Below are positions 16,083 through 48,517 of a stretch of 64,000 bases of DNA, piece by piece. A program made the translations under genes and the position numbers. This stretch comes from Sphingosinicella soli (GTDB lineage: Bacteria; Pseudomonadota; Alphaproteobacteria; Sphingomonadales; Sphingomonadaceae): contig NZ_JACHNZ010000011.1 of assembly GCF_014199685.1 (NCBI RefSeq), forward strand, positions 1-64,000, read 5' to 3'. Under the pieces are notes generated by a model that saw only the letters and a program-made list of their open reading frames with translations, did not search any database and had not been told where the DNA came from. Position 1 is the stretch's first letter. Every line of letters starts with the position of its first letter.

Positions 16083-16847
16083 TTAGTCGGACGGGGTCAG
16101 CAGCCCGATGCACCAGTCGACATGATGCAGAATAATCGCCTCGGCACTGCGCGAGTCCCGCTCCAACAGCGCTTCGGTAAGTCTTTGATAGTTCGTGACA
16201 TACTGCGGCGCATGAGCGTCGAGATCGATCGCTGCGACAAGCAGCCGGTTCCAGTACTCGATCTGCATCGTACGCATGACGAAATCGACGTAGGGCTTTT
16301 GCGCGATGGCGTTCGCCACATAATGGAAGGTGTTCAGCGCGTGGAAAAAGGCCATGCCTTCGGCAGGATTGGCCGCCGCGCTGCGGATCGCCGCCATGGC
16401 CGCGCGGATCAGATCCGGATTGTCGGCGTCCTGCGCGCGCGCGGCGGCGGCCTTGAGACCCAGAGCGGCAATCGGGGCAAGAACCTCGTACATCTCGGCA
16501 AGGTCGTTTTGCTTCATCGGGCGCAGCACGGCACCGCGATCAGGAAGCAGTTCGACGAGCCCCTGCCCCGCGAGAACCGCCAGCGCCTCGCGCACCGGCG
16601 CGCGGCTGAGATCGAGTTGCTGCGCGACCTCGGCAGCGATGATCCGGCTGCCGGGGGCCAGCTCACCGCGGTCCATCGCCGCCATCAGTGTCTGATAGAC
16701 GCGCTCGACGAGCGACATTTTCAGCTCACCGCCCGCAGTGACCTTCGACGCCCCGAACGGACGGACAGGCACCTTGGGTTCCGCCGCGCCGGATGTCTTC
16801 GAACCCGCGCCTCGCCTGGCCGGTGTTTTCGTTTTCGGTCCGCCCAT
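16083..16847 (-). CDS. GntR-family (FCD) transcriptional regulator
   Basis: DNA-binding regulator, 254 residues. A basic Ala/Lys/Pro-rich tail (~1-40) precedes the winged helix-turn-helix (~45-105; SRAPVREALAVL is the typical recognition region), then an all-helical FCD ligand-binding domain to the C-terminus. It lies directly upstream of, and on the same strand as, the TonB-receptor-led catabolic operon. The identical palindromes before this gene and before the receptor gene suggest it represses both itself and the operon, released by a pathway metabolite. The exact start is uncertain because the basic tail offers no internal check. Confidence 0.9.
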   Translation of the reverse strand: MGGPKTKTPARRGAGSKTSGAAEPKVPVRPFGASKVTAGGELKMSLVERVYQTLMAAMDRGELAPGSRIIAAEVAQQLDLSRAPVREALAVLAGQGLVELLPDRGAVLRPMKQNDLAEMYEVLAPIAALGLKAAAARAQDADNPDLIRAAMAAIRSAAANPAEGMAFFHALNTFHYVANAIAQKPYVDFVMRTMQIEYWNRLLVAAIDLDAHAPQYVTNYQRLTEALLERDSRSAEAIILHHVDWCIGLLTPSD

Positions 16848-16883: not shown

Positions 16884-17481
16884 CCGCGCTCGTAACGCAG
16901 CGGCGACGAAATCTCCAGCAGGGGTGCTCGAAATCCAAAGACGACGTTATCGCCAGCGCCGAAAGTCGCATGGCACCTCCCTCAGGAGGGCATTTCGATA
17001 CCAGGAAAAGTACCATGGACTTGACGCGGCATGGTATCGATTTACCCGAATTCCTGCGGACGCCATGACAGAAATAATGAAAAAAACAGTCACTTGGCGA
17101 CGAAAATGGACGCCCATGGACGGTATCTGGTGACCCAACGGGCATGACGGAACAGTTCTACTGCTTTATTATAATTGTATTATATTCAAAGAATTTTGGC
17201 ATATGCCATCAGATGTACCATCAGAAAGAAAGGCTGCGGCGGAACCGGTCTCTGTGTTTAAGCCGTTTGTTGTTCGACTTGTTTTGACCGTAAATTGGCC
17301 TGCCATATCCCCCCCTGAACATAGAGGGATCATGCTTCTGAATTTCTTGAGATGGCTGGGAAATACTCAATGGTAAAGACGATTTAATTACTTGCCAAAA
17401 GTATAATGCTTGCGAAATTGACGAAGTCGAGGAATTTTACAGCGATTATGTTATACCGGGTAGCGATAAGACGCCACTGCT

Positions 17482-17610
17482 TTAGGGTCCGGACCCTGGT
17501 TTGGCGAAGAAGCCTTCGATGCCCCAGCGCCGCTTGTAGGCGATGCGGTCATAGCGGTGGCGATCTCGTGGCGCGGGTAGCCGCGCCCCGCCGCCGCATA
17601 CAGTGCCGAG
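17482..17610 (-). mobile_element. IS5-family transposase C-terminal fragment
   Basis: On the minus strand this encodes RYDRIAYKRRWGIEGFFAK, matching the end of the IS5-group DDE transposase core (family pattern YDxxLYKxRxxIExxFAKLK, with the final catalytic Glu). The match stops abruptly and runs into a palindrome at 17484-17497. No other transposase domain or terminal repeat pair was found, so this is a dead remnant, and it marks past rearrangement at the boundary between the GntR operon and the F420 operon. Confidence 0.6.
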
Positions 17611-17647
17611 CCGCGCCGGGCTCAAGCCAGCTACGCATACTGGACGA

Positions 17648-17679
17648 TTTCGTTTATCATATTTTTCGTTTATCATATT
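17648..17679. repeat. 16-base perfect tandem duplication
   Basis: TTTCGTTTATCATATT occurs twice head to tail and abuts the operator-like site at 17680. It lies between the transposase remnant and fbiC. Confidence 0.85.
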
Positions 17680-17693
17680 TGAGCAGTTGGTCA
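17680..17693 (+). promoter_or_regulatory. TGACC-N4-GGTCA operator upstream of fbiC
   Basis: TGAGCAGTTGGTCA, one mismatch to the shared palindrome, followed by GTATAT as at other sites. Reading towards fbiC, TTGAGC-N16-TACAAA could form a sigma-70 promoter with the left arm as the -35 element. It is about 290 bases from the fbiC start and links the F420 operon to the downstream catabolic promoters. Confidence 0.5.
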
Positions 17694-17972
17694 GTATATT
17701 TACAAAGATTGTCGATAATGACGGTGGAATGAGCACAGGGCATCAAGCTGTCGACCGTATCAGGGCGTGACGCCTTAGCTCAGTTTTCAGGGATCTCCAG
17801 AGTCATCCGCCACCCGCGAAATTCAAATCCGTCGAGGAAATGGCGGGCCACCGCTACTGACCAGACAAACAGGCTTGCCAGCACCAATTCAAACAGGCAA
17901 ACACTGATCGTTGCGACAATGCCGCCCTCATCCTGATCGCAGGATGCTGAATTACAGCACCGCGCTGCTCCA

Positions 17973-20285
17973 ATGCTATGCGAAAGAATGACTTTGGGAA
18001 GCGAATCGAATTTTCTTGAACGCCCACTATCCTCATTGGTCTCCGATGCTGAACGGCTGACCATTGGATCGTTTGGTCCGGTCGTGACCTATTCCCGCAA
18101 GGTATTCATTCCACTCACGACGCTCTGCCGAGACGTTTGCCATTATTGCACGTTCGCGAAGGCGCCGCGTCAAATCCGTTCGCCCTATCTAAGCCGCGAG
18201 GAGGTGCTGGCGATCGCCCGCGCAGGCGCCGAGGCAGGATGCCGTGAGGCTTTGTTTACGCTTGGTGATCGTCCCGAGGCCCGCTTCAGTGCTGCACGAA
18301 GTGCGCTGGCGGCTATGGGTTACAGGAGCACGCTGACCTATCTCGGTGCCATGGCGAAAGCCGTGCTCGACGAGACTGGGCTGCTGCCACATCTCAATGC
18401 GGGTCTGATGGACGACGCCGACTATGCGGCGCTGCGTCCGGTGTCAGCCTCCATGGGCCTTATGCTGGAGACCGCGTCGGAGCGGCTGTCGCATAAGGAC
18501 GGTCCACATTATGGTTCGCCTGACAAGCTGCCGGCGCGGCGGCTAGAGGCGCTCGAAGCGGCGGGTCGGGCCCTGGTGCCGTTCACGACCGGCCTGCTGA
18601 TCGGAATCGGGGAAACTCGTATCGAGCGGATAGAGGCACTGCAGGCGATCCGTAACAGCCATGCGCGCCATCGCCATATTCAGGAAGTGATCATCCAGAA
18701 CTTCCGTGCCAAACCCGGCACGAAGATGGCCGACCATCCAGAGCTGTCGCTGGATGAACATCTGTGGACCATCGCTGTGGCTCGATTGATTCTTGGACCG
18801 GACATGGTGATTCAGGCACCGCCAAATTTACATGCTCCCGATGAGCTTGCAGCGCTGCTGCGCGCCGGTGTCAACGATTGGGGGGGCGTGTCTCCCGTAA
18901 CGCCCGACCATGTGAACCCGGAGGCGCCTTGGCCGCGCCTCGATTTGCTGGACAGAGCGACTTCCGCAGCGGGCCGGGTGCTGCGCGAACGCCTCGCGAT
19001 CGGGCCTTCCTTTGCACGCAAACCCGAAGCATGGATGGAGCCTGCACTGGCGCGGGTGGTACGCCGCTCGGTCGATGCGCGGGGGTTGCCAATCACGGAC
19101 GGCTGGCATTCGGGCACGGCCTTGCCGATGCCTGTCGAGCGGCGCGAGGGCGTCACTGTCCAGTCCGGCAGAATACGGGAGATCCTGGCGCGCGCGCTCA
19201 AAGGTGGGCGACTTGAGGAAGGAGACATCGTCCGGCTTTTCGAAGCCGACGGTCCCGACATTGAATTGATTACCGGTGCGGCCGACGAACTGCGGCGGCA
19301 GGCAATTGGCGATGCGGTGACCTTTGTCGTCAACCGCAATATCAATTATACGAATATCTGCCTTTACAAATGCGGCTTCTGCGCCTTTTCGAAAGGGACC
19401 GCAAAGGCCCTGCGCGGTCCAGCCTATATGCTCGATTACGAGGAGGTGGCGCGGCGCGCTGTAGAGGCCGCTGACCGGGGCGCGACCGAGGTCTGCCTGC
19501 AGGGCGGCATTCATCCCGACTATGACGGCAACACCTATATAAATGTGCTGCGCACGGTGCACACGGCGGCACCCTCGATCCACATCCATGCCTTCTCACC
19601 GCTTGAGGTGACGCACGGGGCGCGCACGCTGGGCTTGTCGCTGCACGACTTCTTGACAATGCTCAAGAAAGAAGGCCTGGCAACTCTGCCGGGGACGGCA
19701 GCCGAGATTCTCGACGACGAAGTGCGCACGATCATCTGCCCGGACAAGGTGAACACAGCCGAGTGGCTCGATGTGATGCGAACCGCCCATGCCATCGGTC
19801 TTCGGTCGACAGCGACGATCATGTTCGGTCATGTAGACCACTATGCCCACTGGGCGCGGCATCTGCTGGCGATTCGTGATTTGCAGTCCGAGACCGGGGG
19901 CTTCACCGAATTCGTGCCTTTGCCGTTCGTGCACATGGAAGCGCCGATCTGGCGGCGCGGTCAGGCCCGGTCCGGGCCAAGCGCACGAGAGTCTTTGCTG
20001 ATGCATTCCGTCGCAAGACTGGTGTTGCACCCGCTGATCTCCAACATTCAGACGAGTTGGGTGAAGCTTGGCGAACAGGGCGTGATCGCGGCGCTGCAAG
20101 CGGGCGCAAACGACCTTGGCGGCGTGCTGATGGACGAATCGATCACGCGCGCGGCGGGCGGAACCAACGGCCAAGCCTGGGACGCGGATCGCATGACGGC
20201 AATCGCCGAGGCGGCGGGTCGCTTTGCGATGCAGCGCACGACACTTTACCAGCCGGCCGCAGCGCTGATGACAGCCGCCGAATGA
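17973..20285 (+). CDS. fbiC: FO synthase (fused CofG-CofH)
   Basis: Makes 7,8-didemethyl-8-hydroxy-5-deazariboflavin (FO), the chromophore of coenzyme F420, from tyrosine and a flavin-pathway pyrimidine. The 770-residue protein is a fusion of two radical-SAM enzymes: the CofG half has CRDVCHYC (Cys 52, 56, 59) and the CofH half has CLYKCGFC (Cys about 463, 467, 470), both binding 4Fe-4S clusters. It follows the actinobacterial fusion arrangement, with highly conserved blocks such as SRKVFIPLT, FTLGDRPEAR and IQTSWVKLG. The N-terminus is about 45 residues shorter than mycobacterial FbiC; no good ribosome site distinguishes 17973 from the next ATG at 17988. It heads a five-gene operon. Confidence 0.95.
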   Translation: MLCERMTLGSESNFLERPLSSLVSDAERLTIGSFGPVVTYSRKVFIPLTTLCRDVCHYCTFAKAPRQIRSPYLSREEVLAIARAGAEAGCREALFTLGDRPEARFSAARSALAAMGYRSTLTYLGAMAKAVLDETGLLPHLNAGLMDDADYAALRPVSASMGLMLETASERLSHKDGPHYGSPDKLPARRLEALEAAGRALVPFTTGLLIGIGETRIERIEALQAIRNSHARHRHIQEVIIQNFRAKPGTKMADHPELSLDEHLWTIAVARLILGPDMVIQAPPNLHAPDELAALLRAGVNDWGGVSPVTPDHVNPEAPWPRLDLLDRATSAAGRVLRERLAIGPSFARKPEAWMEPALARVVRRSVDARGLPITDGWHSGTALPMPVERREGVTVQSGRIREILARALKGGRLEEGDIVRLFEADGPDIELITGAADELRRQAIGDAVTFVVNRNINYTNICLYKCGFCAFSKGTAKALRGPAYMLDYEEVARRAVEAADRGATEVCLQGGIHPDYDGNTYINVLRTVHTAAPSIHIHAFSPLEVTHGARTLGLSLHDFLTMLKKEGLATLPGTAAEILDDEVRTIICPDKVNTAEWLDVMRTAHAIGLRSTATIMFGHVDHYAHWARHLLAIRDLQSETGGFTEFVPLPFVHMEAPIWRRGQARSGPSARESLLMHSVARLVLHPLISNIQTSWVKLGEQGVIAALQAGANDLGGVLMDESITRAAGGTNGQAWDADRMTAIAEAAGRFAMQRTTLYQPAAALMTAAE

Positions 20286-20295
20286 AGAGGATATT

Positions 20296-20955
20296 ATGAC
20301 GAACGAAACAGTAATCGCCGTGGTGGGCGGGACCGGCAAGCTGGGCGCGGCGATCGCGCGCCGGCTGGCCAAGGCAGGGCGCAAAGTGATCATCGGCTCG
20401 CGGTCGGCAGAAAATGCGCAGAAGGCGGCGGCCGAGCTCGGCTTCGGCGTGACCGGCAAGAGCAATGCGAATGCGGCGCAAGCGGGGGACATCGTGATCG
20501 TTACCGTGCCCTTCCAAGCGCAGGACGCGACGCTCGCCGAGATCAAACCATTCGTTCAGGGCAAGATCGTGGTCGATACCACGGTGCCGCTGGCCCCGCC
20601 GAAGGTGATGCGGGTACAGCTTCCTGAAGAAGGTAGCGCCGCAGTCCGCGCGCAGAACGCGCTGGGTGTGGACGTCACCGTCGTCTCGGGCTTCCATAAT
20701 GTCGCCGCGCACAAGCTGGCGACGGACCAGGACATCGCGTGCGACGTGCTGGTCTTCGGCGACGACAAGGCCGCGCGAGCGCAAGTCGTCGAGCTCGCCA
20801 ATGCCGCCGGCCTACGTGGTATTCATGGCGGTGCGCTCGTCAATTCGGCGGCGGCCGAGGCGCTGACTTCGATCCTCATCTTCATCAACAAGACCTATCA
20901 GGTTGACGGCGCCGGCATCACCATCACAGGAAAGCTGACTAACCCTGAGGCCTGA
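20296..20955 (+). CDS. npdG: NADPH-dependent F420 reductase (F420:NADP oxidoreductase)
   Basis: Cytoplasmic two-electron hydride transferase that interconverts F420 and F420H2 with NADP(H); 219 residues, normal for the Fno/NpdG family. The Rossmann loop VVGGTGKLGAAIA is at the N-terminus, SRSAENA binds the NADP phosphate, and the VSGFHNVAAHKL stretch typical of the family is near residue 130. It starts 10 bases after fbiC with AGAGGAT as ribosome site. Its presence supplies reduced F420 without a glucose-6-phosphate dehydrogenase of the Fgd type, none of which is seen here. Confidence 0.92.
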   Translation: MTNETVIAVVGGTGKLGAAIARRLAKAGRKVIIGSRSAENAQKAAAELGFGVTGKSNANAAQAGDIVIVTVPFQAQDATLAEIKPFVQGKIVVDTTVPLAPPKVMRVQLPEEGSAAVRAQNALGVDVTVVSGFHNVAAHKLATDQDIACDVLVFGDDKAARAQVVELANAAGLRGIHGGALVNSAAAEALTSILIFINKTYQVDGAGITITGKLTNPEA

Positions 20956-20963
20956 TAGTTCGC

Positions 20964-21719
20964 ATGATCCAGATCCATCCGCTCCCGTCCATTGGTGAAG
21001 TCCGTCCCGGGGATGATCTGGCGCGGGCGCTCGCCAATGCCGTCCATGCGGCTGGGATCATACCGCTGGCATCGGACGTGCTGGCCGTCACCCAGAAGAT
21101 CGTGTCCAAGGCCGAAGGCCGTTTTGTTGACCTCGATACGGTGACGCCCGGCCCAAAGGCGCTGGAACTGGCCGAAATTACGCGCAAGGATCCCCGCATC
21201 GTCGAGCTCGTTCTGGCGGAATCGCAAAATATAGTGCGCGCAATGCCAAACGTACTGATTGCGCGCCATCGATCGGGCCACGTCATGGCCAATGCGGGGA
21301 TTGATCGCTCGAACCTTGGCCCTGGCGATGGTGACAGGGCCCTGCTGCTACCGGTCGATGCCGATGCCTCGGCGGCGCGGCTGCGCAATGCGCTTGCGGC
21401 AATCTGGCCTGAGGCGCCAGCGGTGCTGATCACCGACAGCTTCGGGCGACCCTGGCGTTATGGCGTTACCTGTGTCGCGATCGGCGCGAGCGGAATACCA
21501 TCGCTGGTCGATCGCCGTGGCGACGTCGATCGTGATGGACGAACGCTTGAGGTTACCCAGATCGCGCTGGGCGACATGATCGCGACAGCCGCCGGCCTGG
21601 CCACCGGCGAAGGCGCTGAAGGCATACCGGCAGCGCTCGTGCGTGGGCTGAGCTGGACAGTGGCAGACACCCCGGCCGCCGCGCTCGTGCGGCCGATCGA
21701 GGAAGATCTGTTCCGTTGA
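20964..21719 (+). CDS. cofE: Coenzyme F420-0:L-glutamate ligase
   Basis: GTP-dependent ligase that adds gamma-linked glutamates to F420-0. It is a 251-residue stand-alone CofE domain, without the C-terminal nitroreductase-like FMN domain fused in actinobacterial FbiB. Recognisable family blocks include VTQKIVSKAEGR (~residues 45-56), ANAGIDRSN (~110) and LITDSFGRPWR (~155). It begins 8 bases after npdG and its stop is overlapped by the TTG start of cofD. The dehydro-F420 reduction step carried out by the FbiB extension must be supplied elsewhere or may be unnecessary. Confidence 0.94.
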   Translation: MIQIHPLPSIGEVRPGDDLARALANAVHAAGIIPLASDVLAVTQKIVSKAEGRFVDLDTVTPGPKALELAEITRKDPRIVELVLAESQNIVRAMPNVLIARHRSGHVMANAGIDRSNLGPGDGDRALLLPVDADASAARLRNALAAIWPEAPAVLITDSFGRPWRYGVTCVAIGASGIPSLVDRRGDVDRDGRTLEVTQIALGDMIATAAGLATGEGAEGIPAALVRGLSWTVADTPAAALVRPIEEDLFR

Positions 21720-22651
21720 GCGGCCAGGTCGTCATCCTGACCGGCGGCGTCGGCGGGGCGAAATTGGTGCTCGGTCTCTGCCACGCCATTCCGGCGAAAT
21801 CAGTGACGGCCATCGTCAATACCGGCGACGATTTCCAGCACCTCGGGCTCTCTGTCTCGCCTGACGTCGATACGCTGCTCTATACATTATCCGGCAAGGC
21901 CAATACCGCGCAGGGCTGGGGCCGTGAAGCCGACACCTGGGAATTCATGAGCGGGCTACGATCGCTGGGCGGCGAGGACTGGTTTCAGCTCGGTGACGGA
22001 GATCTCGCACTGCACGTGTTGCGAAGCCAAAGACGGCAGCGGGGCGATCCATTGTCCACGATCATTGCGGATTTCGCATCGGCATGGGGCATCGCGGCGC
22101 AGGTGCTGCCCATGACAGACGATGTTGTCGCGACCAAGGTCGAGACCGACGAGGGCATTCTCGACTTTCAGCACTATTTCGTGCGGCGTCGCTGTGAGCC
22201 GATCGTCCGCGCGATTCGCTTTGAAGGCGCGGCCACGGCAAGGCCAGGGCCGGGTATCATCGAAGCGATTTCGAACCCCGATTGCGAAGCCGTGCTGATC
22301 GCGCCTTCCAATCCGTTCCTGAGCGTCGATCCGATCCTGTCAGTGCCGGGTATCAAAGAAGCGTTGGCGGGATCTCGTGCGCCGGTGATTGCCGTGTCCC
22401 CGCTCGTCGGCGGCAAGGCAGTGAAAGGCCCAACCGCAAAGATGATGAAGGAGCTTGGGCTGGACGTCACCGCGGCTGCCGTCGCCACGCATTATGCAGG
22501 CGTGATCGATGCGATGTTGGTCGATGAACGTGACCCGCTGCGGGATCTGCCGGTTCCCTCGGCGCGAGTCGACACGCTGATGACGACTCTCAGCGATCGC
22601 ATCCTCGTGGCCCGCGCAGCGCTCCAGCTCGCTCGCGCGATCCGGTCATGA
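21716..22651 (+). CDS. cofD: 2-phospho-L-lactate (or phosphoglycerate) transferase
   Basis: Transfers the phospholactyl/phosphoenolpyruvyl/phosphoglyceryl group from its guanosine-diphosphate carrier to FO, giving F420-0 or a variant. The 311-residue protein begins with the family motif TGGVGGAKL and contains NTGDDF and SPDVDTLLYTL near residues 38-60. Translation starts at a TTG embedded in the cofE stop (TTGA), so expression depends on coupling. Which three-carbon acid is used cannot be decided from sequence; proteobacterial cofactors include the 3-phosphoglycerate form. Confidence 0.94.
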   Translation: MSGQVVILTGGVGGAKLVLGLCHAIPAKSVTAIVNTGDDFQHLGLSVSPDVDTLLYTLSGKANTAQGWGREADTWEFMSGLRSLGGEDWFQLGDGDLALHVLRSQRRQRGDPLSTIIADFASAWGIAAQVLPMTDDVVATKVETDEGILDFQHYFVRRRCEPIVRAIRFEGAATARPGPGIIEAISNPDCEAVLIAPSNPFLSVDPILSVPGIKEALAGSRAPVIAVSPLVGGKAVKGPTAKMMKELGLDVTAAAVATHYAGVIDAMLVDERDPLRDLPVPSARVDTLMTTLSDRILVARAALQLARAIRS

Positions 22652-23211
22652 GTTGGACGGCGATTGTCCCGCTCAAAACGAGCGGCGAGCGCAAGAGCCG
22701 CCTCGCCCGACTGCTTTCCGCAGAGGAACGATCCGTCCTCAGCGCCCGAATGTTCCACCATGTCATAAACGTCCTGCCGCATGTCCCTGCGATCGGCAGG
22801 ATCGTCGTTCTCGCAGACGAGTGCCCCGCCGATTGGCGCGGCGACTGGATGGCTGATGGCAGGCGGGGCCTCAATCTCGAGCTCGAACAGGCCCGCAAGC
22901 TTCTCGCAGGCGACCTGATCGTGCTGCACGCCGACTTACCGCTGTTGACGCCCGAGGACGTGGCCGCGCTGATCGAAGCGGCTTCAGAAGGACTGGCGAT
23001 TGCACCCGACCGACATCGAACCGGCACCAATGGTCTGGCCTTGAAAGCGTCTACCTTTCTCGAATTCTCTTTCGGTACCGACAGCTTCTCTCTGCATCGG
23101 CTGCAGCATTTGGATTGCAAGGTGATCAAGCGGGAGGGTTTCGCACTCGATCTCGATACGCCCGATGACCTGAAGGCCCTGATGGAGATACCCGCCTATT
23201 TGAAACTGTAG
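22648..23211 (+). CDS. cofC: 2-phospholactate/3-phosphoglycerate guanylyltransferase
   Basis: Activates the three-carbon phospho-acid with GTP for CofD. The 187-residue protein has the nucleotidyltransferase pattern SWTAIVPLKTSGERKSRLA at the N-terminus, DLIVLHADLPLL near residue 90 as metal and nucleotide site, and a conserved GTNGLALK stretch near 130. It overlaps cofD by ATGA and ends the F420 operon. Its last 16 bases overlap the 3' end of the convergent P450 gene, leaving no space for a separate terminator. Confidence 0.92.
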   Translation: MSWTAIVPLKTSGERKSRLARLLSAEERSVLSARMFHHVINVLPHVPAIGRIVVLADECPADWRGDWMADGRRGLNLELEQARKLLAGDLIVLHADLPLLTPEDVAALIEAASEGLAIAPDRHRTGTNGLALKASTFLEFSFGTDSFSLHRLQHLDCKVIKREGFALDLDTPDDLKALMEIPAYLKL

Positions 23212-27788: not shown

Positions 27789-27855
27789 CGACTTCTCCCG
27801 AACCTGGGGCAGGTCTCCGTCTGTCATTTCCAGAACGATCAACCCTGCCCATTAC

Positions 27856-27869
27856 TGACCATAATGTCA
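27856..27869 (-). promoter_or_regulatory. TGACC-N4-GGTCA operator, small protein/Rieske A/P450 operon
   Basis: TGACCATAATGTCA on the plus strand, one mismatch. In the gene direction it reads TTGACATTATGGTCAGTA, where TTGACA is a perfect -35 hexamer overlapping the left arm. Confidence 0.65.
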
Positions 27870-27885
27870 AATTATGCCATATACG

Positions 27886-29670
27886 CTACGCCACAGCAGC
27901 AAGCGCGCAATCGCGCCCGAGAATCGCGGCCAGCGCCTCGGGCAGTTGCTCCCGGCCCGCGACATCAGCCGCGCGCCAGCCGACATGCCCGTCAGGACGG
28001 ACAAGCACCGCACCATCGTCGCCCGTCCCCCTCACCAGAGCCCAGCAACGGTCAACGTCGCGATATCCGCCCTCACCCACCAGCACAACGCGCAGCGGCA
28101 CACCGAGCCGTTCGGCAGCTGCCTCGCCCACGCGCCGCCACCCGCTCGCATCACTCGCCACGAACAGCGTGAACCCGCCGCGCCCGACGAGATCGAGCGT
28201 CGACACCCGACCCTCCGGCCCTTCGAGCCAGGCGTGGGGCAAACGGTGTCCGGGTCGCGTCACCGGATGATATTCATCCCCCATCGGACTTTGCGGCGGC
28301 GGTTGCGTGCCATCGGGTATGACTGCATCACCGCCGTAATAGAAACCGATTTCAAGGTCATGCGCCTGGAATTCGGTGCGCTGGGTACGGATCACCTCGT
28401 CGAGCCGGTGGCGGCGCGTTACCCCTTCGGGTGTATCGGAGAAAAGGATCCGGAAAGCCTCGCGGTTGACTTCGACCGGCGCGGCCGGGATCAAACCGAT
28501 GCCGGCGTCGATGACGAGATGGTTCTGGAAGGTCAGCATCGCCCAGTTGACGTTCCGCGACGCCACCGGCCGTCGCTCCGTCTCATAGCTGTCGAGCAGC
28601 GATGGCGCCGCCTGCCCCTTCAGCACCGCCGCGAGCTTCCACGTCAGGTTCTGCGCATCCTGTACTGCAGTGTTGAGACCAAGTCCCGTTGTCGGCGGAT
28701 GGCGATGCGCCGCATCCCCCGCCAGGAAGATGCGCCCTTCCTGGAAACGGCGCGCGAGCACGCCCTGCACCTTCCAGTTGTTCATGCGGATGATCCGGGG
28801 ATCAATGTCGGGTAGGCGCAGCAGCTCTTTCAGCCGCGGAACCACCGATTCGGCATCGAACTGCGCGGGGTCATCGGGCTGGAAGGCGAAGTGCAGCAAC
28901 CATTCCTCGCTGTGCCGGTCATAATGGTCGGGCCCCAGCGCGACCATCACGCCGCTACCCCAGGAACCACCCTTCTCCGGGTTGATGAACCAGCGGATCA
29001 TGGGGCTGTCATCGTCGATCACGTGGCTGAGATCGGCGCCGAAATGGCAGGTTACCATATCGAACAGCCGATCGATCCCATCCATCGGAATGCCCAGCGT
29101 CGGACCGACGAAACGCCCGCCGTCAGCGGCAATCATGTAGCGCGCGCGCACCTGATAGGTCTCACCGGTGCCGCGCTCAAGGACCGTCGCAGTGACGCCA
29201 TCGGCATCCTGCTCGAACGACTGCACTTCATGATGATAATTGATCTTGGCGAGCGGCAGCGTGCGGGCATGTTCGAGCAACAGCGGCTCAAGCCGGAGCT
29301 GCGGATAATTGGCCGATCGGCATGGGCTGTCGCGGTCGTAGACCTCCTTGAGCGAGCGCCCGCCGAAGGCGTCCATCAGATGGATCGTCTTGCGATCGAG
29401 TTCGCCATCACCACCGAGCGAGGTGAACCAGCCCACCCGTGACATATTCTCCTGCGGAGTGCTGACCGAATAGATCCGGTCGGCGATGCCGATCTCGCGG
29501 AAAATTTCCATCGTCCGCTGGTTGAGGTAATGCGCCTTGGGCGCGGGCGAGGTGGTCGGATAGCGCTCCACCAGCCACGACTCGATTCCGGCCTGTGCCA
29601 GCATGATCGCCGAGCTAAGCCCGCATCCGGCGCCGCCGACAATCAGCACGGGTGTTTCGATCACCTTCAT
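27886..29670 (-). CDS. Class A FAD-dependent aromatic hydroxylase
   Basis: Flavoprotein monooxygenase of the phenol/2,4-dichlorophenol hydroxylase (MhpA/TfdB-like) group, 594 residues. The N-terminal FAD loop VGGAGCGLSSA, the mid-protein DG motif around ARYMIAADGGRFVG (~190) and the second FAD motif IFLAGDAAHRHPPTTGLGLN (~315) are present, with a C-terminal thioredoxin-like domain. It has its own promoter region with an operator at 29736. It probably uses NAD(P)H directly, so unlike the Rieske and P450 enzymes it needs no partner protein. Confidence 0.92.
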   Translation of the reverse strand: MKVIETPVLIVGGAGCGLSSAIMLAQAGIESWLVERYPTTSPAPKAHYLNQRTMEIFREIGIADRIYSVSTPQENMSRVGWFTSLGGDGELDRKTIHLMDAFGGRSLKEVYDRDSPCRSANYPQLRLEPLLLEHARTLPLAKINYHHEVQSFEQDADGVTATVLERGTGETYQVRARYMIAADGGRFVGPTLGIPMDGIDRLFDMVTCHFGADLSHVIDDDSPMIRWFINPEKGGSWGSGVMVALGPDHYDRHSEEWLLHFAFQPDDPAQFDAESVVPRLKELLRLPDIDPRIIRMNNWKVQGVLARRFQEGRIFLAGDAAHRHPPTTGLGLNTAVQDAQNLTWKLAAVLKGQAAPSLLDSYETERRPVASRNVNWAMLTFQNHLVIDAGIGLIPAAPVEVNREAFRILFSDTPEGVTRRHRLDEVIRTQRTEFQAHDLEIGFYYGGDAVIPDGTQPPPQSPMGDEYHPVTRPGHRLPHAWLEGPEGRVSTLDLVGRGGFTLFVASDASGWRRVGEAAAERLGVPLRVVLVGEGGYRDVDRCWALVRGTGDDGAVLVRPDGHVGWRAADVAGREQLPEALAAILGRDCALAAVA

Positions 29671-29735
29671 CGCTCCGATATCCTCTCACTCGCGCGGTCG
29701 CCCGTGGCCGCGTGATAGCAATTCTCACTCAATAC

Positions 29736-29749
29736 TGACCATTTCGTCA
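29736..29749 (-). promoter_or_regulatory. TGACC-N4-GGTCA operator, FAD hydroxylase
   Basis: TGACCATTTCGTCA, one mismatch, 66 bases upstream of the hydroxylase start. Towards the gene it reads TTGACGAAATGGTCAGTA, again with a -35-like left arm. Confidence 0.65.
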
Positions 29750-29764
29750 AGTTGTCCTGGAGTG

Positions 29765-30565: not shown

Positions 30566-32902
30566 TCACCGCTTCTTCGGCAAGGCATAGGCGACAATCG
30601 AATCGCCAAGCGGCGACTGCAGCATGACGTGGCCGCCCGCCGCGATCAGCACGAACTGCCGCCCGCTTGCCGGAGAGACGTAGGTCATCGGATTCGCCTG
30701 GCCGCCGGCTGGAAGAGACGCGCGCCAGAGTTCGCGGCCATTGCGAATGTCGAATGCCCGGAAGGCGCGCTCCTGCGTCGCCCCGATAAAGACAAGCCCG
30801 CTTCTGGTGGCAAGCGAACCGCCGAACATCGGCATGCCCATCCGCAGTGGCAGCCGCGACGCGAGGCCCATCGGTCCACTGTCCCGCGCCGAGCCGATCG
30901 ATCGTGTCCAGACCAACTTTTGCGTGCGCAGGTCGATAGCGGAGATGGTCCCGAACGGCGGCTCGTTGCACGGCACGTTGAGCGGTGAGACCAAACCCGA
31001 CAGGCGAATGCCGTACGGCGTGCCCGCTTGCGGCTGCGGCAGATCATACATATGCGCAACCGAGGCCTTCGCACGCAGCCGATCGGTTTCGGCTCGCGGC
31101 ACGAGCTGCGCGATCGTGCCGTAATAGATCGCGTTGACGATCATCAGCCCACGCTCGGGATCGACCGAGACCCCGCCCCAGTTCATCCCACCGCCGATAC
31201 TCGGATAGATCAGCGACTCGTCGGTCGCGGGCGCGGTCGCCGGCCCCTGGTAACGTAGCTCGCGGAAGCGAATGCGGCACCAGAGCTGGTCGAACGGCGT
31301 GATTCCCCACATATCGCGCTCACGGAGGCGCTCACCCGCGAAGCTCGGCATACCGACCGAATAGGGCTGCGTCGGCGCGGTCCAGTCACCGCTCACGGGC
31401 GGACGCTGGGGCGCGGGTCGTTCCTCGACAGCCGCGACAGGCACCCCGGTTCGGCGGTCGAGCAGGAAGAGTTCTCCCCGTTTGGTCGGCTGGGCGAGCG
31501 CGGGCACCATCCGGCCCCTAAGCGGCACCTCAACCAATGTCGGCTGCGACCCGACATCATAATCCCAAAGATCGTGATGCACCGTCTGGAACGACCAGCG
31601 CGGCGTCCCCGTCGTCGCGTCCAGCGCGACCACCGAACTGCCGTAGCGTTCAGCCGCCGCGCTGCGCGCGCCGCCCCAGTGGTCAGGCGTCGAACCGCCC
31701 GTTGGGACATAGACCAGCCCCAGCACCTCGTCGGCGCTCATCGGTGCCCAGCTGTTCGGCGTCGAGCGCGTGTAGTGCTGGCCCGGTGCTGGCTCGCGAT
31801 TGTCGCCGGGGCGCCCCATGTCCCACGCCCAGGAGAAACGCCCGCTTGCAACATCATAGGCGCGGATCACTCCCGAGGGCTCGTCGGTGCTCTGATTGTC
31901 GGAGACCCAGCCGCCGAGCACGATCTGCCCGCGCACGATCGTGGGTGCCGAACTCACATAGTAGAAGCCCTTCTCGACGACCCCCATCCCGGTCTTGAGA
32001 TCGACGAACCCGCCATTTCCGAACGACGCACATGGCCTCCCGGTTTTCGCATCGAGCGCGATCAAGCGCGCGTCGAAGGTCGCGGTAATGATCCGCGCCG
32101 GACAGTCGGCCGCGTCGGGCACCCGATGGAAGGCGACGCCCCGGCAGGTCGTCACCGCACTCGCGCCCGTCGGGTCCACCTTGGGATCGAACCGCCAGCG
32201 CTCCTTGCCCGTCTCGGGATCGAGCGCGATGACGATGTTGGTCTGCGTGCAGAGATAGAGCGTGCCGTCCACCATCAGCGGAGTCGTCTGTAGCGGGCTC
32301 TTCGTGCCGGGCTGACGAACGCCGGTGCGATAGGTCCAGGCGACTTCGAGATCGCTGACATTTGCGGGGGTGATCTGGTCGAGCGTCGAGAAGCGCTGCC
32401 CGGCATTGGTGCCGCCCCAGGCAAGCCATTCCGCGCCGGCTGCATCGTCGCCGCCCGGCAAGGCCTGGCCCGGCGGTGGCGCGGCGAATCTGTCGGGCGA
32501 GTCGGAGATTCCAACGCCTGCCAGCGTGACGATCATCAGCAGTCCCGCAGCGGCGGGCGCCCACCCGGAACGGCCGATCGAGCGGCGGACGGGAGGAAGT
32601 GCGAAAGCAAGGCCGAGCAAGGCCGGCCCGATCAACCGCGGCGCGAGCGCCCAACCGTCGATCCCCGCCTCCCACAGCGCCCAGCCGAGCGTCACCGCGA
32701 GAAAGGCCGCATACAGCCAGCCTGCGAGCCGGTGCCCACACCACAACAATATGGCGGCAACGACGACAGCGATACCGCCCAGCAGATAATAGCTTGAGCC
32801 GCCCAGCGTGACGAGGAGAGCGCCGCCGAGCGCGATGGCGGCGCCGATCACGAACAACAGCAGCGCCAACAGCCGAGGCACCACGGTTCGCGCGCAGCTC
32901 AT
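30566..32902 (-). CDS. Membrane-bound PQQ-dependent dehydrogenase (glucose/quinate type)
   Basis: Quinoprotein of 778 residues that oxidises an alcohol, aldose or cyclic polyol on the periplasmic side and passes electrons to ubiquinone. About five transmembrane helices occupy residues 10-140, then the eight-bladed propeller starts with WLAWGGTNAGQRFS near residue 160. The overall length and layout fit the GCD/quinate dehydrogenase group without a heme c domain. No PQQ biosynthesis genes are in the window. A perfect operator lies 44 bases upstream, placing it in the same regulon as the oxygenases, so its substrate may be the pathway's alcohol and not glucose. Confidence 0.9.
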   Translation of the reverse strand: MSCARTVVPRLLALLLFVIGAAIALGGALLVTLGGSSYYLLGGIAVVVAAILLWCGHRLAGWLYAAFLAVTLGWALWEAGIDGWALAPRLIGPALLGLAFALPPVRRSIGRSGWAPAAAGLLMIVTLAGVGISDSPDRFAAPPPGQALPGGDDAAGAEWLAWGGTNAGQRFSTLDQITPANVSDLEVAWTYRTGVRQPGTKSPLQTTPLMVDGTLYLCTQTNIVIALDPETGKERWRFDPKVDPTGASAVTTCRGVAFHRVPDAADCPARIITATFDARLIALDAKTGRPCASFGNGGFVDLKTGMGVVEKGFYYVSSAPTIVRGQIVLGGWVSDNQSTDEPSGVIRAYDVASGRFSWAWDMGRPGDNREPAPGQHYTRSTPNSWAPMSADEVLGLVYVPTGGSTPDHWGGARSAAAERYGSSVVALDATTGTPRWSFQTVHHDLWDYDVGSQPTLVEVPLRGRMVPALAQPTKRGELFLLDRRTGVPVAAVEERPAPQRPPVSGDWTAPTQPYSVGMPSFAGERLRERDMWGITPFDQLWCRIRFRELRYQGPATAPATDESLIYPSIGGGMNWGGVSVDPERGLMIVNAIYYGTIAQLVPRAETDRLRAKASVAHMYDLPQPQAGTPYGIRLSGLVSPLNVPCNEPPFGTISAIDLRTQKLVWTRSIGSARDSGPMGLASRLPLRMGMPMFGGSLATRSGLVFIGATQERAFRAFDIRNGRELWRASLPAGGQANPMTYVSPASGRQFVLIAAGGHVMLQSPLGDSIVAYALPKKR

Positions 32903-32945
32903 CAGACCCTCCCCTTTCTCTCTTTCCTTATAGCTACGCCGTTGC

Positions 32946-32959
32946 TGACCTTTTGGTCA
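32946..32959 (-). promoter_or_regulatory. TGACC-N4-GGTCA operator, PQQ dehydrogenase
   Basis: TGACCTTTTGGTCA, a perfect copy. In the gene direction TTGACC-N18-TAGCTA could be the promoter, with the operator covering the -35 element. Confidence 0.75.
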
Positions 32960-33086
32960 AGCCATTATCCGAGCTGAGTTTCCGCTTGTGCCTAGCGCCT
33001 GAACCCCGGCTCACAACTGCGAAAACGTACCCACAGTGCAGACCGAGTCGTGCGCGGCGCCAGCTGTCGTCACAAAAAAAGACCAC

Positions 33087-34108: not shown

Positions 34109-34204
34109 ACTGACGCGTCCTCACGAAATCCATTACCGGACGCTTATGCGCCTCACGCTTAATGTACTGGAATAGAATGCTGGAGGAGCCTTGCCCTTTT
34201 ATTC

Positions 34205-34218
34205 TGATCTTTTGGTCA
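34205..34218 (+). promoter_or_regulatory. TGACC-N4-GGTCA operator, NmrA-like gene
   Basis: TGATCTTTTGGTCA, one mismatch, followed by GTCC. It lies 188 bases upstream of the gene at 34406; the intervening leader of about 190 bases carries no gene. Confidence 0.6.
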
Positions 34219-34405
34219 GTCCATTGACAGGTCCACTTGTCACTGCGAGGATAATCGAGAGAGCGGTTTCCAGGGTAGTGGCATGTCGTATAGCCGCCCA
34301 GCCGTGAGGGTACGGTCGCAGCCCTGATAAGCAGCACGCGGCGGCGAACACCGCCCCGTTTTCATATGTGTATCTGCAAATAAACAGCCTGACCGGGAGA
34401 GCGAA

Positions 34406-35281
34406 ATGGCGAGCAAGCGGATTACGGTATTTGGCGCGACGGGAACCTCGGGTGGAGGTGCAATGCGGCACCTCATGAATGACGGTTGGACGGTACGCGC
34501 GGTGACCCGCGACGCGAATTCGGACAAGGCAAAAGCCGCAGCCGCGGCGGGCGCCGAACTGGAGATAGCCGATCTCGACGATCTCGCCTCGGTCCGCAAA
34601 GCGATCGAGGGCTCGGACGCGGTCTATCTCGCGGGGCCATCGCTCGGCAACCGCTGGGATAGCGGCCAGGCGCGGCAGGGAATCGGCGTCGTCGATGCCG
34701 CAGTGGAGGTCGGCATCGGACATCTGGTCTACCAATCGGCGATGGTCGAAGGCGCGCGCGGTGTGCTGAGCGTAGGGTCGAAGCGCGCAATCGAGGAGCG
34801 GATCGCCGAGCTGGACATCCCCTGGACGGTCAACCGCCCCGGCTTGTTCATGGACAACTTCCTGACCTATTTTCCGTTGCAGGAGCAGGACGGCCAGCTC
34901 AGCATCGCGATGGCGCTGCCGCTCGACAAACCGCAAGGACTCGTCTCGGCCGATGATATCGGCCGCGCCGCCGCCGCAGTGCTGGCCGCGCCCGACAGGC
35001 ATAGCGGCAAGGCCTATGACCTGGTCGCCGATATCGTCAGCTTCGGAGAGATGGCAGAGATCATCGGCGACGAGGCCGACCGCCAGGTAACACCGATCTC
35101 GGTCCCGCTCGATGCTCTCGCTCAGGGATGGCCGCAAGGCGTGAGTCTCTACACATGGCTCTCAACGCGCGTCGAAACCGATAGCACCGACACGCTGGAG
35201 AGTCTCGTGGGAGAACCCATTCCGTTTCGTAAATGGGTGCGTACCCACCTCATCCCTCACCTAATGCAGACGTCCGCCTGA
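34406..35281 (+). CDS. NmrA-family NAD(P)-binding protein
   Basis: Atypical SDR of 291 residues. The Rossmann loop VFGATGTSGGGAM is at the N-terminus (NmrA pattern GATGxxG), the segment ending YLAGPSL near 80 is typical of QOR2/NmrA proteins, and no YxxxK active site is obvious. Members are quinone reductases, redox sensors or isoflavone-type reductases. GGGAGAGC precedes the ATG. It is a single-gene unit under an operator-type site; a reductase acting on a quinone or enone intermediate is a reasonable guess only. Confidence 0.82.
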   Translation: MASKRITVFGATGTSGGGAMRHLMNDGWTVRAVTRDANSDKAKAAAAAGAELEIADLDDLASVRKAIEGSDAVYLAGPSLGNRWDSGQARQGIGVVDAAVEVGIGHLVYQSAMVEGARGVLSVGSKRAIEERIAELDIPWTVNRPGLFMDNFLTYFPLQEQDGQLSIAMALPLDKPQGLVSADDIGRAAAAVLAAPDRHSGKAYDLVADIVSFGEMAEIIGDEADRQVTPISVPLDALAQGWPQGVSLYTWLSTRVETDSTDTLESLVGEPIPFRKWVRTHLIPHLMQTSA

Positions 35282-35337
35282 CGACCGTAACGCCCTGGGA
35301 GCCTCGGGTAATCTCGATCGTGCATATTTATCTCGAT

Positions 35338-35351
35338 TGACCAATAGGTCA
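35338..35351 (+). promoter_or_regulatory. TGACC-N4-GGTCA operator, TonB receptor/Rieske B operon
   Basis: TGACCAATAGGTCA, a perfect copy, 75 bases before the receptor start. TTGACC-N17-TACCCT is a candidate promoter with the operator over the -35. Confidence 0.75.
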
Positions 35352-35425
35352 GTACACTTTACCCTGCGATTCGACACACAAGAGATGCCGTGATCAGACG
35401 GCTCCACAACATATGGGGATGGATT

Positions 35426-38023
35426 ATGCGCACACGTCGCTCGCTTTCGTTTGTCAGCTCCACGGCACTTGCTTGCGCCATCTGCACGAACGCAGCCGCC
35501 GCCCAGACGGCCGAGGATCAGCAAACGCCCACGCAGCTGGCACAGGCGACTGCGCCAGACGCAGGTGCCGCGCAAGACAGCCGCTCCGAGATAGTACAAA
35601 GCGGAAACCAGATCAGCGAGATCGTCGTCACCGCGAACAAGCGCGAACAGAATCTGAACAAGGTCGGCCTGACCATTTCCGCAATTAGTGGTGAGGCTTT
35701 GCAGAATCAACGCATCACCACCGTTGCCGACCTCGCAAAGGTTACGCCCGGCCTGACTTTCGCTCCCACGCCAAACTCGACGCCCGTTTATACGTTGCGC
35801 GGCGTTGGCTTCTTCGAGGCTTCGCTCGCTGCCTATCCAGATGTCAGCCTTTACATTGATCAGGTTCCGCTTTCACTGCCCGCGATGTCGTCGCTGACCG
35901 CATTCGACCTCGAACGCGTTGAAGTCCTGAAAGGCCCTCAGGGCACATTGTTCGGCAACAACGCGACCGGCGGCGCCATCAACTTCATCGCCGCCAAGCC
36001 TACCCGAGAACTCCAATATGGAGTGGACCTAAGTTACGGGCGATTCAACACAGTCGACGTCGGCGGCTTCATCAGCGGCCCGATCACCGAGAACCTGCGT
36101 GCACGCCTCTCGTTCAAGGCGGTTAACGGCGATGAATGGCAGAAGAGCTATACTCGGATCGACGGTGGCGTGCCGGCTGAATTCCAAGCCCTTGGCGTGC
36201 CGGATCCCGGCAACGGCCGGCAGGACCGGCTCGGCAAACTCGACAATGTCGCCGCCCGGTTGCTTCTAGACTGGGATGCCAGTGACAGCCTGCGCTTTTC
36301 CTTCAATGTCAACGGCTGGCGCGACCAGAACGACCCGACGGCGCCGCAGTATACCAGAGCCGTTCCGCAGAATCCGCCCGGCTCGGCTGGCCCGGGCGGT
36401 GTCGTTCCAGTCGACCTTCCGGCTTTCGTCTACCCCGCTGCGCCGCACAACGCGCGCGCCGCCGACTGGAACCCGTATCTCCGTCCGTTCCAGAACAACA
36501 AGTTCTGGCAGACCGCGCTCCGCGCCGATTGGGACATCACTCAGGATCTCACCGTCACCTCCATCACCGGCTACAGCGATCTCGACTTCCTCAACGCGAC
36601 CGATGGCGACGGCATGGCGCTCGAGGGGCTCGATCTCGGCCGCGACAAGGGCAGGATAAAGTCGTTCACGCAGGAAGTCCGCCTGGCGAATGCCGCATCC
36701 AACCCGCTGCGCTTCGTGATCGGTGCCAATTACGAGCGCACGACCGCGAACGAAGATATCGAGCTGTATATCAGCGGCACGTCTTCGACGGCGGCAAACG
36801 GCTTCAACGGGAATTTCTACGGTTCCGATCAGACGATGAAGAACTACGCGGCCTTCGGTAACATTGAATATGATATCGGCGAATGGTTGACGCTGAAGGG
36901 CGGCATCCGCCGGACCAAGGCCGAGCGCGCGGCGGACATCCGCTCCCCCTACGAGCCTGACGGCTTCTACAAGCCGGGCGTGTTCGGCGACAACTCGCTC
37001 ACCAAATTCTTCAACGCCACTTATGAGGTCCTGGCCGGCCTCGGCGTTTACGGCCCGGGCGTCGTCATCCCGACGATCCCGGTCGGAAACGGCATCGCGC
37101 TGGACACCCGCACCAATCCCGACGGCAGCCCGGTCGATCCTTCGACCTATCTGCAGCCTGGCAATCCCTATCTCACACTCGATGAAAAGAACACGTCCTG
37201 GAGCGTCGGTGCGGACATCAAACCGAACGACGATCTGCTACTCTACGTCAACGTGTCGAAGGGCTACAAGGCAGGCAGCATTCCGACGCTCGCCGGTGCC
37301 ATCTACGATGCCTATCTGCCGGTGACACAGGAATCGCTGCTCGATTTCGAGGGCGGATTCAAAATTCAGCTGATGGACCGCAGGCTCTCGATCAACGGCG
37401 CTGCCTTCTACTACGACTATAAGGACAAGCAGCTTCGCGCGAAGTTCGTCGATCCGATCTTCGGCGCGCTCGACAAGCTCGTGAACGTACCCAAGTCGAA
37501 GATCAAGGGCGCCGAGCTCAATATCAATGCCCAGCCGACGGACGGCCTCACGCTGTCCGGCGCTGTGACCTATCTCGACGCGAAGGTCAGCGAATATCAG
37601 GGAATCACCGGCTCGGTCGTCGATCCGGGCAGCGGTCTGCGCGTACCGACCTTCGCCTCGTTCAAGGGTGTCACGCTGCCTTACGCCCCCGAATGGCAGT
37701 TCGCGGTCCGCGCGGACTGGGAGTTCCCGCTGACCGAGACGTTCGACGGCTATGCGGGCATCGGAATCAACGGCCAGAGCAAGTCGATCGGCGTGCTCAC
37801 CGTGTCCCCGGTGGAGCGCGAGGATTACAAGATCAACGCTCGTGCTCTGGTCGATCTCAACGCGGGCATCGCCACGAACGATGGGCGCTGGCGGGCCGGC
37901 CTTTGGGGCAAAAACGTATTCAACAAATACTACTGGACCAACGCGATCCAGGCCTACGACAACATCATGCGTTACGCGGCGCGCCCCGCTGAATACGGGC
38001 TGACCGTGTCCTTCCGCTACTGA
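35426..38023 (+). CDS. TonB-dependent outer-membrane receptor (copy A)
   Basis: Outer-membrane importer of 865 residues. The signal peptide (~26 residues, ending AAAAQ) supports the ATG at 35426 rather than a GTG 36 bases upstream. The plug has EIVVTANKREQNL (TonB-box-proximal) and LKGPQGTLFGNNATGG; the barrel ends in a typical Phe/Tyr terminus (SFRY). It is strongly similar to the receptor at 45918-48452 along its length, so the two arose by duplication. It heads an operon with an EthD-like protein, Rieske oxygenase B, the small Rieske-associated protein and a GST, and probably imports that pathway's substrate. Confidence 0.94.
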   Translation: MRTRRSLSFVSSTALACAICTNAAAAQTAEDQQTPTQLAQATAPDAGAAQDSRSEIVQSGNQISEIVVTANKREQNLNKVGLTISAISGEALQNQRITTVADLAKVTPGLTFAPTPNSTPVYTLRGVGFFEASLAAYPDVSLYIDQVPLSLPAMSSLTAFDLERVEVLKGPQGTLFGNNATGGAINFIAAKPTRELQYGVDLSYGRFNTVDVGGFISGPITENLRARLSFKAVNGDEWQKSYTRIDGGVPAEFQALGVPDPGNGRQDRLGKLDNVAARLLLDWDASDSLRFSFNVNGWRDQNDPTAPQYTRAVPQNPPGSAGPGGVVPVDLPAFVYPAAPHNARAADWNPYLRPFQNNKFWQTALRADWDITQDLTVTSITGYSDLDFLNATDGDGMALEGLDLGRDKGRIKSFTQEVRLANAASNPLRFVIGANYERTTANEDIELYISGTSSTAANGFNGNFYGSDQTMKNYAAFGNIEYDIGEWLTLKGGIRRTKAERAADIRSPYEPDGFYKPGVFGDNSLTKFFNATYEVLAGLGVYGPGVVIPTIPVGNGIALDTRTNPDGSPVDPSTYLQPGNPYLTLDEKNTSWSVGADIKPNDDLLLYVNVSKGYKAGSIPTLAGAIYDAYLPVTQESLLDFEGGFKIQLMDRRLSINGAAFYYDYKDKQLRAKFVDPIFGALDKLVNVPKSKIKGAELNINAQPTDGLTLSGAVTYLDAKVSEYQGITGSVVDPGSGLRVPTFASFKGVTLPYAPEWQFAVRADWEFPLTETFDGYAGIGINGQSKSIGVLTVSPVEREDYKINARALVDLNAGIATNDGRWRAGLWGKNVFNKYYWTNAIQAYDNIMRYAARPAEYGLTVSFRY

Positions 38024-41129: not shown

Positions 41130-41151
41130 CGGCACGACGGCTGCCGTTTTC
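41129..41151 (+). terminator. Rho-independent terminator after GST A
   Basis: ACGGCA and TGCCGT form a 6-base stem with a 7-base loop, followed by TTTTC. It begins at the last base of the GST stop codon and lies between convergent genes. Confidence 0.55.
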
Positions 41152-42190
41152 ATCCATCAAGCGCACGAACGGCAGCGACGATATCCTCCTGCTGGTCGGG
41201 CGTAGTGCCGTGGAGCAAAATCTGATCCGCGCCCGCCGCGCGATATTCGGCGAGCCGCGTGGCACATCGCGACAGGCTGCCGATCGCCGCGCCCTGTTCG
41301 AGCCATTCATCCGGCAGCATTGCCACCGCCTCCGCCATCTGCCTGCGCGCCTCGGCGATGTCGCCCTGGCCATACTCCAGGCGGCTGAGACCCGTCTCGA
41401 CCAGCCGGTCCATCGGCGCCTCGTCCCAGCCGTTCATGGAGACGATCGGCAGTCCAACCTCGCGGTGCATGAAATAGGATACCGCGCGCGCCTCCAATAT
41501 GTCTTCGCGCTGCTTCGGCAGGAGGTTGTCCGGCGCCGTCACCACGGTCGCGTAGATGGTCACGGCTTCGGGATCGCGCCCTGCATCGCGCGCGGCATCG
41601 CGCACAATACGAGCCGAGCGCGCCACGCCCTCCGTTGTCAGGAAAGGATGGAGCACGACTCCATCAAAGTGCGCCCCCCCCAACGCCAGGGTTTTCGGCC
41701 CAACCGCGCCGAGGATAACCGGCGGCGGAGCATCGCAGGGCTGCGCGAGTTGCATCTCAGGATAGTCGCCCGCCGGACCGCTGTAGGATACGCTCTCCCC
41801 GGCCCATAGTCGCCGGAGGATCCCGACATGGTCGGCCATGCCCGCATTGTTGAGGACGGTAATCCCGAGTTTTCGGAATAGCGGCGGCACGGCGCGGCCG
41901 AAACCCAGGATGAAGCGGTTGCCGCTCAACATCTGCAAGGTCGCGCCCATTCCGGCCTGCACGAGCGGATGGCGTGTCCCGAAATGCGTCAGCCCGGCAA
42001 CCAGTTTCACCCGGCCGGTTGCCTGGGTGAGCGCGCCCATCACCGCACCCAGCTCTTTGGTTTCCCACCGCTCGGATAGGAAAATGCCCCCAAGCCCGAG
42101 CGCCTCACCCGCTTTGGCTTGATCGAGACCCGGGGCCGGATGCGCGGCGCGGCCCGGCAGGATATAAGCGTTCAGACGATCGATAAGCAT
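41150..42190 (-). CDS. Luciferase-like oxidoreductase, probable F420-dependent class
   Basis: TIM-barrel LLM-family protein of 346 residues. The sequence has the order of the F420-dependent class (LGGIFLSERWETKELG near 30-45, AGLTHFGTRHP near 65, LSGNRFILGFGRA near 85, and an ILGAVGPKTLALGG phosphate-binding region near 160). Such enzymes transfer hydride from F420H2 to a ketone, enone, imine or nitro-aromatic. The complete F420 operon in the same window strengthens F420 over FMN as cofactor, but sequence alone does not prove it. It follows a BKACE gene by 44 bases on the same strand. Confidence 0.82.
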   Translation of the reverse strand: MLIDRLNAYILPGRAAHPAPGLDQAKAGEALGLGGIFLSERWETKELGAVMGALTQATGRVKLVAGLTHFGTRHPLVQAGMGATLQMLSGNRFILGFGRAVPPLFRKLGITVLNNAGMADHVGILRRLWAGESVSYSGPAGDYPEMQLAQPCDAPPPVILGAVGPKTLALGGAHFDGVVLHPFLTTEGVARSARIVRDAARDAGRDPEAVTIYATVVTAPDNLLPKQREDILEARAVSYFMHREVGLPIVSMNGWDEAPMDRLVETGLSRLEYGQGDIAEARRQMAEAVAMLPDEWLEQGAAIGSLSRCATRLAEYRAAGADQILLHGTTPDQQEDIVAAVRALDG

Positions 42191-43164: not shown

Positions 43165-43203
43165 GGCAGACTCCTCTAAGCTTTACCACTCGATTGCGCT
43201 AAT

Positions 43204-43218
43204 TTTCCAAATGGTCAA
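43204..43218. promoter_or_regulatory. TGACC-N4-GGTCA-type operator between BKACE-2 and the MDR gene
   Basis: TTTCCAAATGGTCA, two mismatches. Towards BKACE it reads TTGACCATTTGGAA, a 14-mer identical to the site in front of the VOC gene (61540-61553). It sits between divergent genes. Confidence 0.5.
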
Positions 43219-43262
43219 TATACTCCGACAAGATCGATTGCATAGACGTAAATGTTTTGGAG

Positions 43263-44270: not shown

Positions 44271-44286
44271 AGGCTTGCTCCGAATC

Positions 44287-44300
44287 TGACAATATGGTCA
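44287..44300 (+). promoter_or_regulatory. TGACC-N4-GGTCA operator, SDR at 44334
   Basis: TGACAATATGGTCA, one mismatch, inside an extended CTGAC...GTCAG palindrome, 33 bases before the start. Confidence 0.65.
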
Positions 44301-44333
44301 GCTACTACAAAGGCACGATGACAGGAGAGGGTG

Positions 44334-48452: not shown

Positions 48453-48517
48453 GCAAATCCCCCCTCTGAATGCGAGCGACTCCATGGCCGCTTCTCGGTA
48501 TATGCGTTAAACCACAC

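Follow-up and report, generated by a model that had tools for sequence, protein, structure and literature searches.

Is synthesis of the cofactor F420 in Sphingosinicella soli controlled together with a catabolic pathway that may depend on it? The question is raised by a locus in the window, i.e. the stretch of 64,000 nucleotides analyzed here, in which an operon for F420 biosynthesis (17973–23211) is preceded by a palindrome also present in front of catabolic genes. The operon is encoded on the + strand and comprises fbiC for FO synthase (CofGH fusion, 770 aa; 17973–20285, start codon approximate; NF006687, 1135 bits, cutoff 1018), npdG for NADPH:F420 reductase (20296–20955; TIGR01915, 184.8 bits, cutoff 149.8), cofE for F420-0:glutamate ligase (20964–21719; TIGR01916), cofD for a protein of the 2-phospho-L-lactate transferase type (21716–22651; TIGR01819) and cofC for the guanylyltransferase (22648–23211; TIGR03552), the last three matching above cutoff. 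The fbiC, cofC, cofD and cofE genes are intact with scores over the curated cutoffs, and FbiC is free of internal stops. To the right of the operon, genes follow for a P450, an HsaA-like protein, SnoaL, a Rieske protein, an FAD monooxygenase, an SDR and a PQQ dehydrogenase, and further for a TonB receptor, EthD, GST, LLM, BKACE and other proteins, with operators preceding the transcription units.

These operators form a family with a consensus of about TAYTGACCAWWTGGTCARTA, of which the window holds approximately a dozen strong members, most of them located a short distance ahead of catabolic genes. On the − strand, the copy at 27853–27872 precedes a gene group encoding a hypothetical protein, Rieske, SnoaL, HsaA-like and P450 proteins, while those at 29733–29752, 32943–32962, 48515–48534, 50454–50473 and 61536–61555 precede the genes for an FAD monooxygenase (27886–29670), the PQQ dehydrogenase (30566–32902), a TonB receptor (45918–48485), an APH-like protein (49127–50374) and a glyoxalase-type protein (60848–61453), respectively. 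On the + strand, the copies at 34202–34221, 35335–35354 and 44284–44303 are followed by an NmrA-like gene 184 bp downstream (34406–35281), a second TonB receptor gene (35390–38023) and the SDR gene (44331–45092). Two copies are placed between divergent genes: the one at 43201–43220 separates a BKACE gene (−), behind which the LLM gene follows, from a zinc dehydrogenase gene (+), and the one at 62448–62467 separates tetR from an FAD monooxygenase gene (C11:62560–64230). Palindromes of the form TGACCA-N-TTGGTCA with up to 3 mismatches occur 32 times in the window versus 9 expected, and GGTCAGTA occurs in 6 copies versus 0.43 expected. No site reaching 16 bits appeared in 15 shuffles of the window. 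In the whole 3.76-Mb genome, sequences with no more than one mismatch to YTGACCAWWTGGTCAR number five, each of them located on this contig; at two mismatches, 7 are located here and 4 on other contigs. Finally, all 12 sites with at least 18 bits are intergenic, although just 10.5% of the region is intergenic. The excess of copies, the shuffles, the restriction to this contig and the intergenic placement together argue for a real, island-specific operator family. The motif TTGAC is present in the upstream half at 11 of 21 operator sites and in the other half at 3. Use of operator orientation as a clue to promoters was dropped, as the leave-one-out orientation was correct in just 12 of the 21 cases.

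The site in front of fbiC extends from 17677 to 17696 (+), reads ATTTGAGCAGTTGGTCAGTA and belongs to this family of 20-bp palindromes. Its core TGAGCAGTTGGTCA at 17680–17693, directly followed 3' by GTATAT, has one mismatch to TGACC-N4-GGTCA, as the first-pass annotation of this DNA had proposed, and scoring confirmed this assignment: a symmetric 20-bp profile built from ten other intergenic sites yields 18.7 bits for the fbiC site, which is inside the range of 16.7–24.5 bits obtained for the ten sites when each was left out in turn. A profile derived from six genomes yields 18.2 bits, placing the site among the weakest members of a set ranging from 18.2 to 25.7 bits. Judged by these scores, the fbiC site belongs to the operator family as a regular, though comparatively weak, representative. 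The core mismatch and the low rank in the set would fit a mere chance match, which we nevertheless consider hardly credible: shuffling produced no site with at least 16 bits, unexplained sites with at least 17 bits occur at a rate of roughly one per 2 Mb, and the operator recurs at three F420 operons (see below). The site is immediately preceded by the tandem TTTCGTTTATCATATT at 17645–17679, which is located in an AT-rich dip (28% GC) of otherwise GC-richer DNA. The stretch 17150–17990 as a whole has no second match in a search of the genome, and the idea that the fbiC site is part of a repeated element was therefore rejected. Residues 17560–17810 matched none of the other sequences compared.

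The probable reader of the operator is a TetR-type regulator (61579–62322, −; domains TetR_N and TetR_C_29), as the motif tracks its orthologs. A close ortholog is present in only 6 of 399 genomes of the family Sphingomonadaceae, this genome among the six, and enlarging the sample to these 399 added no further TetR-positive genome. In the relatives G095, G071, G089 and G153, the motif adjoins the TetR ortholog or is found within its cluster. The same holds for the named, cultured strain Novosphingobium resinovorum SA1, whose plasmid pSA1 has the motif around a TetR ortholog with 66% identity and an orthologous gene cluster (76463–117146), the cluster containing at least six operator copies above 18 bits. 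Position of the operator 62448–62467 beside tetR suggests autoregulation. One could object that another regulator reads the palindrome and that TetR is a mere neighbor, e.g. the product of the GntR/FCD gene at 16083–16847, the regulator gene nearest to the fbiC operator, or a regulator encoded elsewhere. However, no GntR homologs were found in the motif-bearing clusters of the relatives while a TetR ortholog was there every time, which leads us to assign the motif to this TetR by inference; moreover, the motif is located between tetR and its divergent neighbor both in this genome and in G095. A different reader thus appears very unlikely, and the island TetR is probably, albeit putatively, the reader of the motif. 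In G190, a TetR relative with 35% identity is flanked by the close palindrome variant TACTGATCGAAAGGTCAATA (L180:6078, 9902, 10707), which suggests a wider operator family of this kind.

The operator was also looked for at F420 genes in general. With a new profile, trained on 32 catabolic sites drawn from six genomes and on no F420 site, we recorded the best score in the 450 bp upstream of each of 434 F420-gene starts. The three top-ranking distinct places among these 434 regions are npdG of G153 (23.8 bits), which is the first gene of its operon, fbiC of G089 (18.5) and fbiC of the window (18.2), and all three genomes possess the TetR ortholog. The fourth-ranked hit (16.2) is located upstream of npdG of G017, within the coding sequence that precedes this gene; 95% of the regions score no higher than 8.1. 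In ~2.07 Mb of other, partly overlapping sequence, a single site with at least 17 bits was neither adjacent to a relative of TetR nor derived from the window. From this background rate, the probability of three hits among the 6–12 F420 operon heads of TetR-positive genomes is estimated at ~1e-7 or less, with a threshold chosen post hoc. A rough Fisher test comparing 3 of 6 with 0 of ~110 control loci, a control count estimated by hand, gives 8e-5.

In a tree of FbiC proteins, the window copy groups with G017 and the G089 copy with G144, G151 and G115, while the G153 copy is on a separate branch. The F420 operons of G089 and G153 also differ in gene order, and the former adjoins tRNA-Tyr. Sampled clade relatives without the TetR ortholog (G017, G144, G151, G115) have no operator at their F420 genes. 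The separate FbiC clades and the site-free relatives lacking TetR indicate that the operator was probably gained separately at F420 operons, at least three times, and separate gains point to selection for a link between F420 and TetR. The earlier proposal that F420 synthesis is wired to the catabolic regulator thus gained support from two further, separate F420 operons, with the operator confined to TetR-positive genomes. Such a connection is not universal: G071 has TetR, LLM and F420 genes and yet no operator at the latter, and the F420 genes on plasmid pSA2 of N. resinovorum are without a copy as well.

The F420 operon appears to be part of a mobile unit. A direct repeat of ~192 bp with 88% identity is present at 16951–17142 on the left and at C11:66435–66630 (within C11:66435–66690, L003:6436–6691) on the right, where it terminates in the 3' portion of tRNA-Glu(TTC) and adjoins a truncated Arm-domain integrase gene. 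The repeats probably delimit an island of 49 kb, and since the F420 operon, tetR and the catabolic genes are all enclosed by them, joint transfer of these genes is probable. The same genome carries a second full F420 gene set on contig C15, with fbiC-npdG at 34162 and cofE-D-C at 665–2915, which spans 34 kb in two parts, interspersed with other genes of catabolic type (L200:665–2915, L005:13493–16391), and has no operator at its gene starts. Neither the C15 set nor the operator-free F420 genes of G071 are part of the link as originally drawn, and both speak against it; with the operator-free set present, induction would increase an existing F420 level instead of starting synthesis from nothing.

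Arrangement of the island edge also allows for a different view of the site, namely that it is a genuine TetR operator left behind as a relic by rearrangement, while the F420 operon is transcribed from its own promoter in the leader and is not co-induced. The leader (17804–17972, +; about 165 bp) is conserved with G017, and homology to this relative begins at 17804, downstream of the operator. As the operator is outside the shared leader, an older promoter within the latter could still act. The distance between operator and fbiC start codon, 276 bp as compared to 10–184 bp at the other sites, is the longest of the set, so that a further promoter could be accommodated there. In addition, a remnant of an IS5-family transposase gene (17378–17553) is located between the left, att-like repeat and the operator. 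However, independent sites at the F420 operons of G089 and G153, both TetR-positive genomes, argue for selection of such wiring, and besides fbiC no intact family-matched gene adjoins the operator. We therefore regard the relic as an unlikely alternative to co-induction. An Rfam search of the leader yielded no known RNA element, a candidate that was accordingly rejected. The first-pass annotation had further proposed a promoter TTGAGC-N16-TACAAA with a possible −10 box at the operator. These letters are present, but with 4 of 6 matches in each box one such arrangement was found versus 1.1 expected, i.e. chance level, and it was not among the candidates of a promoter scan at 9 of 12 matches, so this promoter proposal is not supported.

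Which enzyme of the pathway could require F420? A likely candidate is an LLM class oxidoreductase (41150–42190, −; TIGR03857, 393 bits, cutoff 218), which is encoded behind the operator at 43201 as the partner of the BKACE gene, the first gene of the pair (42235–43164, −; NF053538, 537.7 bits, cutoff 430). NF053538 denotes 3,5-dioxohexanoate:acetyl-CoA acetone transferase, and the BKACE match provides a hint to the pathway chemistry. Use of F420 rather than FMN by the LLM protein is a prediction from its family name, and co-occurrence with F420 genes supports it. Orthologs with 66–67% identity exist only in G071, G089 and G153, which possess TetR as well as F420 genes, while only distant LLM relatives are found in G095 and G178, which have TetR and no F420 genes, and in G017, G076 and G190, which have F420 genes and no close TetR. 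Beyond the window, relatives retrieved by a TIGR03857 search of 399 genomes of the order reach just 41–43% identity. The LLM gene of G153 has its own operator (21.3 bits); in G089 and G071, no operator is near the LLM gene itself. A likely F420-using enzyme behind the operator further strengthens the proposed link between F420 and catabolism, and with the operator also at the F420 operon, enzyme and cofactor synthesis are predicted to be under shared control.

The explanation we favor, and consider probable, is that 17677–17696 is a binding site of the island TetR, through which F420 synthesis and the pathway are co-induced. Similar wiring at unrelated F420 operons of two relatives likewise points to a probable joint induction of the cofactor and the pathway. 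From the site, its family and their association with TetR, all visible in the sequence, we infer the following scenario. Without inducer, TetR would occupy the palindrome ahead of fbiC as well as ~12 like sites and hold down transcription of the F420 operon and of the units that encode, among others, oxygenases, dehydrogenases, receptors and the LLM protein. Binding of an effector, for which the pathway substrate or one of the first intermediates is the probable candidate, would free TetR, and the pathway enzymes would then be produced together with the cofactor for the LLM enzyme. Transcription of the fbiC operon would start from a promoter near 17680–17720, giving a leader of roughly 250–280 nt, and the operator-free C15 set may provide basal F420. 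A more far-reaching interpretation, to which we give an even chance, is that the catabolic island is mobile and brings along an inducible F420 supply of its own, controlled by the pathway repressor, beside the operator-free set, and that this connection was made at least three times separately in sphingomonads, as the F420 need of the TIGR03857 enzyme exceeds the basal level.

Catabolic clusters can be governed by local TetR-family regulons, in which the tetR gene is part of the cluster and operators precede many units, one of them at its own divergent promoter. The proposed island regulon resembles these in having a single in-cluster TetR gene, many operators and a site at the gene's own divergent promoter, and differs in its extension to a complete F420 biosynthetic operon. 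F420-dependent catabolism, as predicted for the island, and pathway-linked F420 reductase genes are features shared with the picrate (npd) degradation cluster of Rhodococcus and Nocardioides, which has F420H2-dependent hydride transferases (review: PMC8498797). Unlike the host of the island, the hosts of the npd cluster are actinobacteria. To our knowledge, regulation of the npd cluster comprises the reductase and the hydride transferases, but not an F420 biosynthesis operon. As for pathway genes that travel with duplicate cofactor genes, as on the island, the closest precedent is plasmid pCMU01 of Methylobacterium extorquens CM4, which unites chloromethane utilization genes with B12 genes that are also present as a separate set on the chromosome (PMC3621897). 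Although pCMU01 encodes more than 20 B12-related proteins, chloromethane raised the abundance of CobH2 only (PMC3621897), and unlike pCMU01, for which shared control is not demonstrated, the island has a shared operator.

The F420 review (PMC8498797), in the part available, describes no catabolic control of F420 synthesis and asks for experiments on F420 in bacteria outside the Actinobacteria; nor did we find F420 biosynthesis under a catabolic regulator described in the searchable literature. Substrate-inducible F420 synthesis, if true, could explain why only traces are present under standard growth conditions, and the finding provides a candidate F420 enzyme and a gene set for tracing the inducer. 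Plasmids pSA2 of N. resinovorum and pCME4A9I of Croceicoccus marinus unite F420 genes, LLM genes of TIGR03857/TIGR03619 and a BKACE gene on one replicon, as is the case here, but the respective regions have LuxR-type regulators nearby and no copy of the island operator. On plasmid pl2WSM5005 of Paraburkholderia sprentiae (L195:7422–20691), F420, LLM, PQQ-type dehydrogenase and pqqABCDE genes are located side by side, i.e. two cofactor pathways together with their candidate users.
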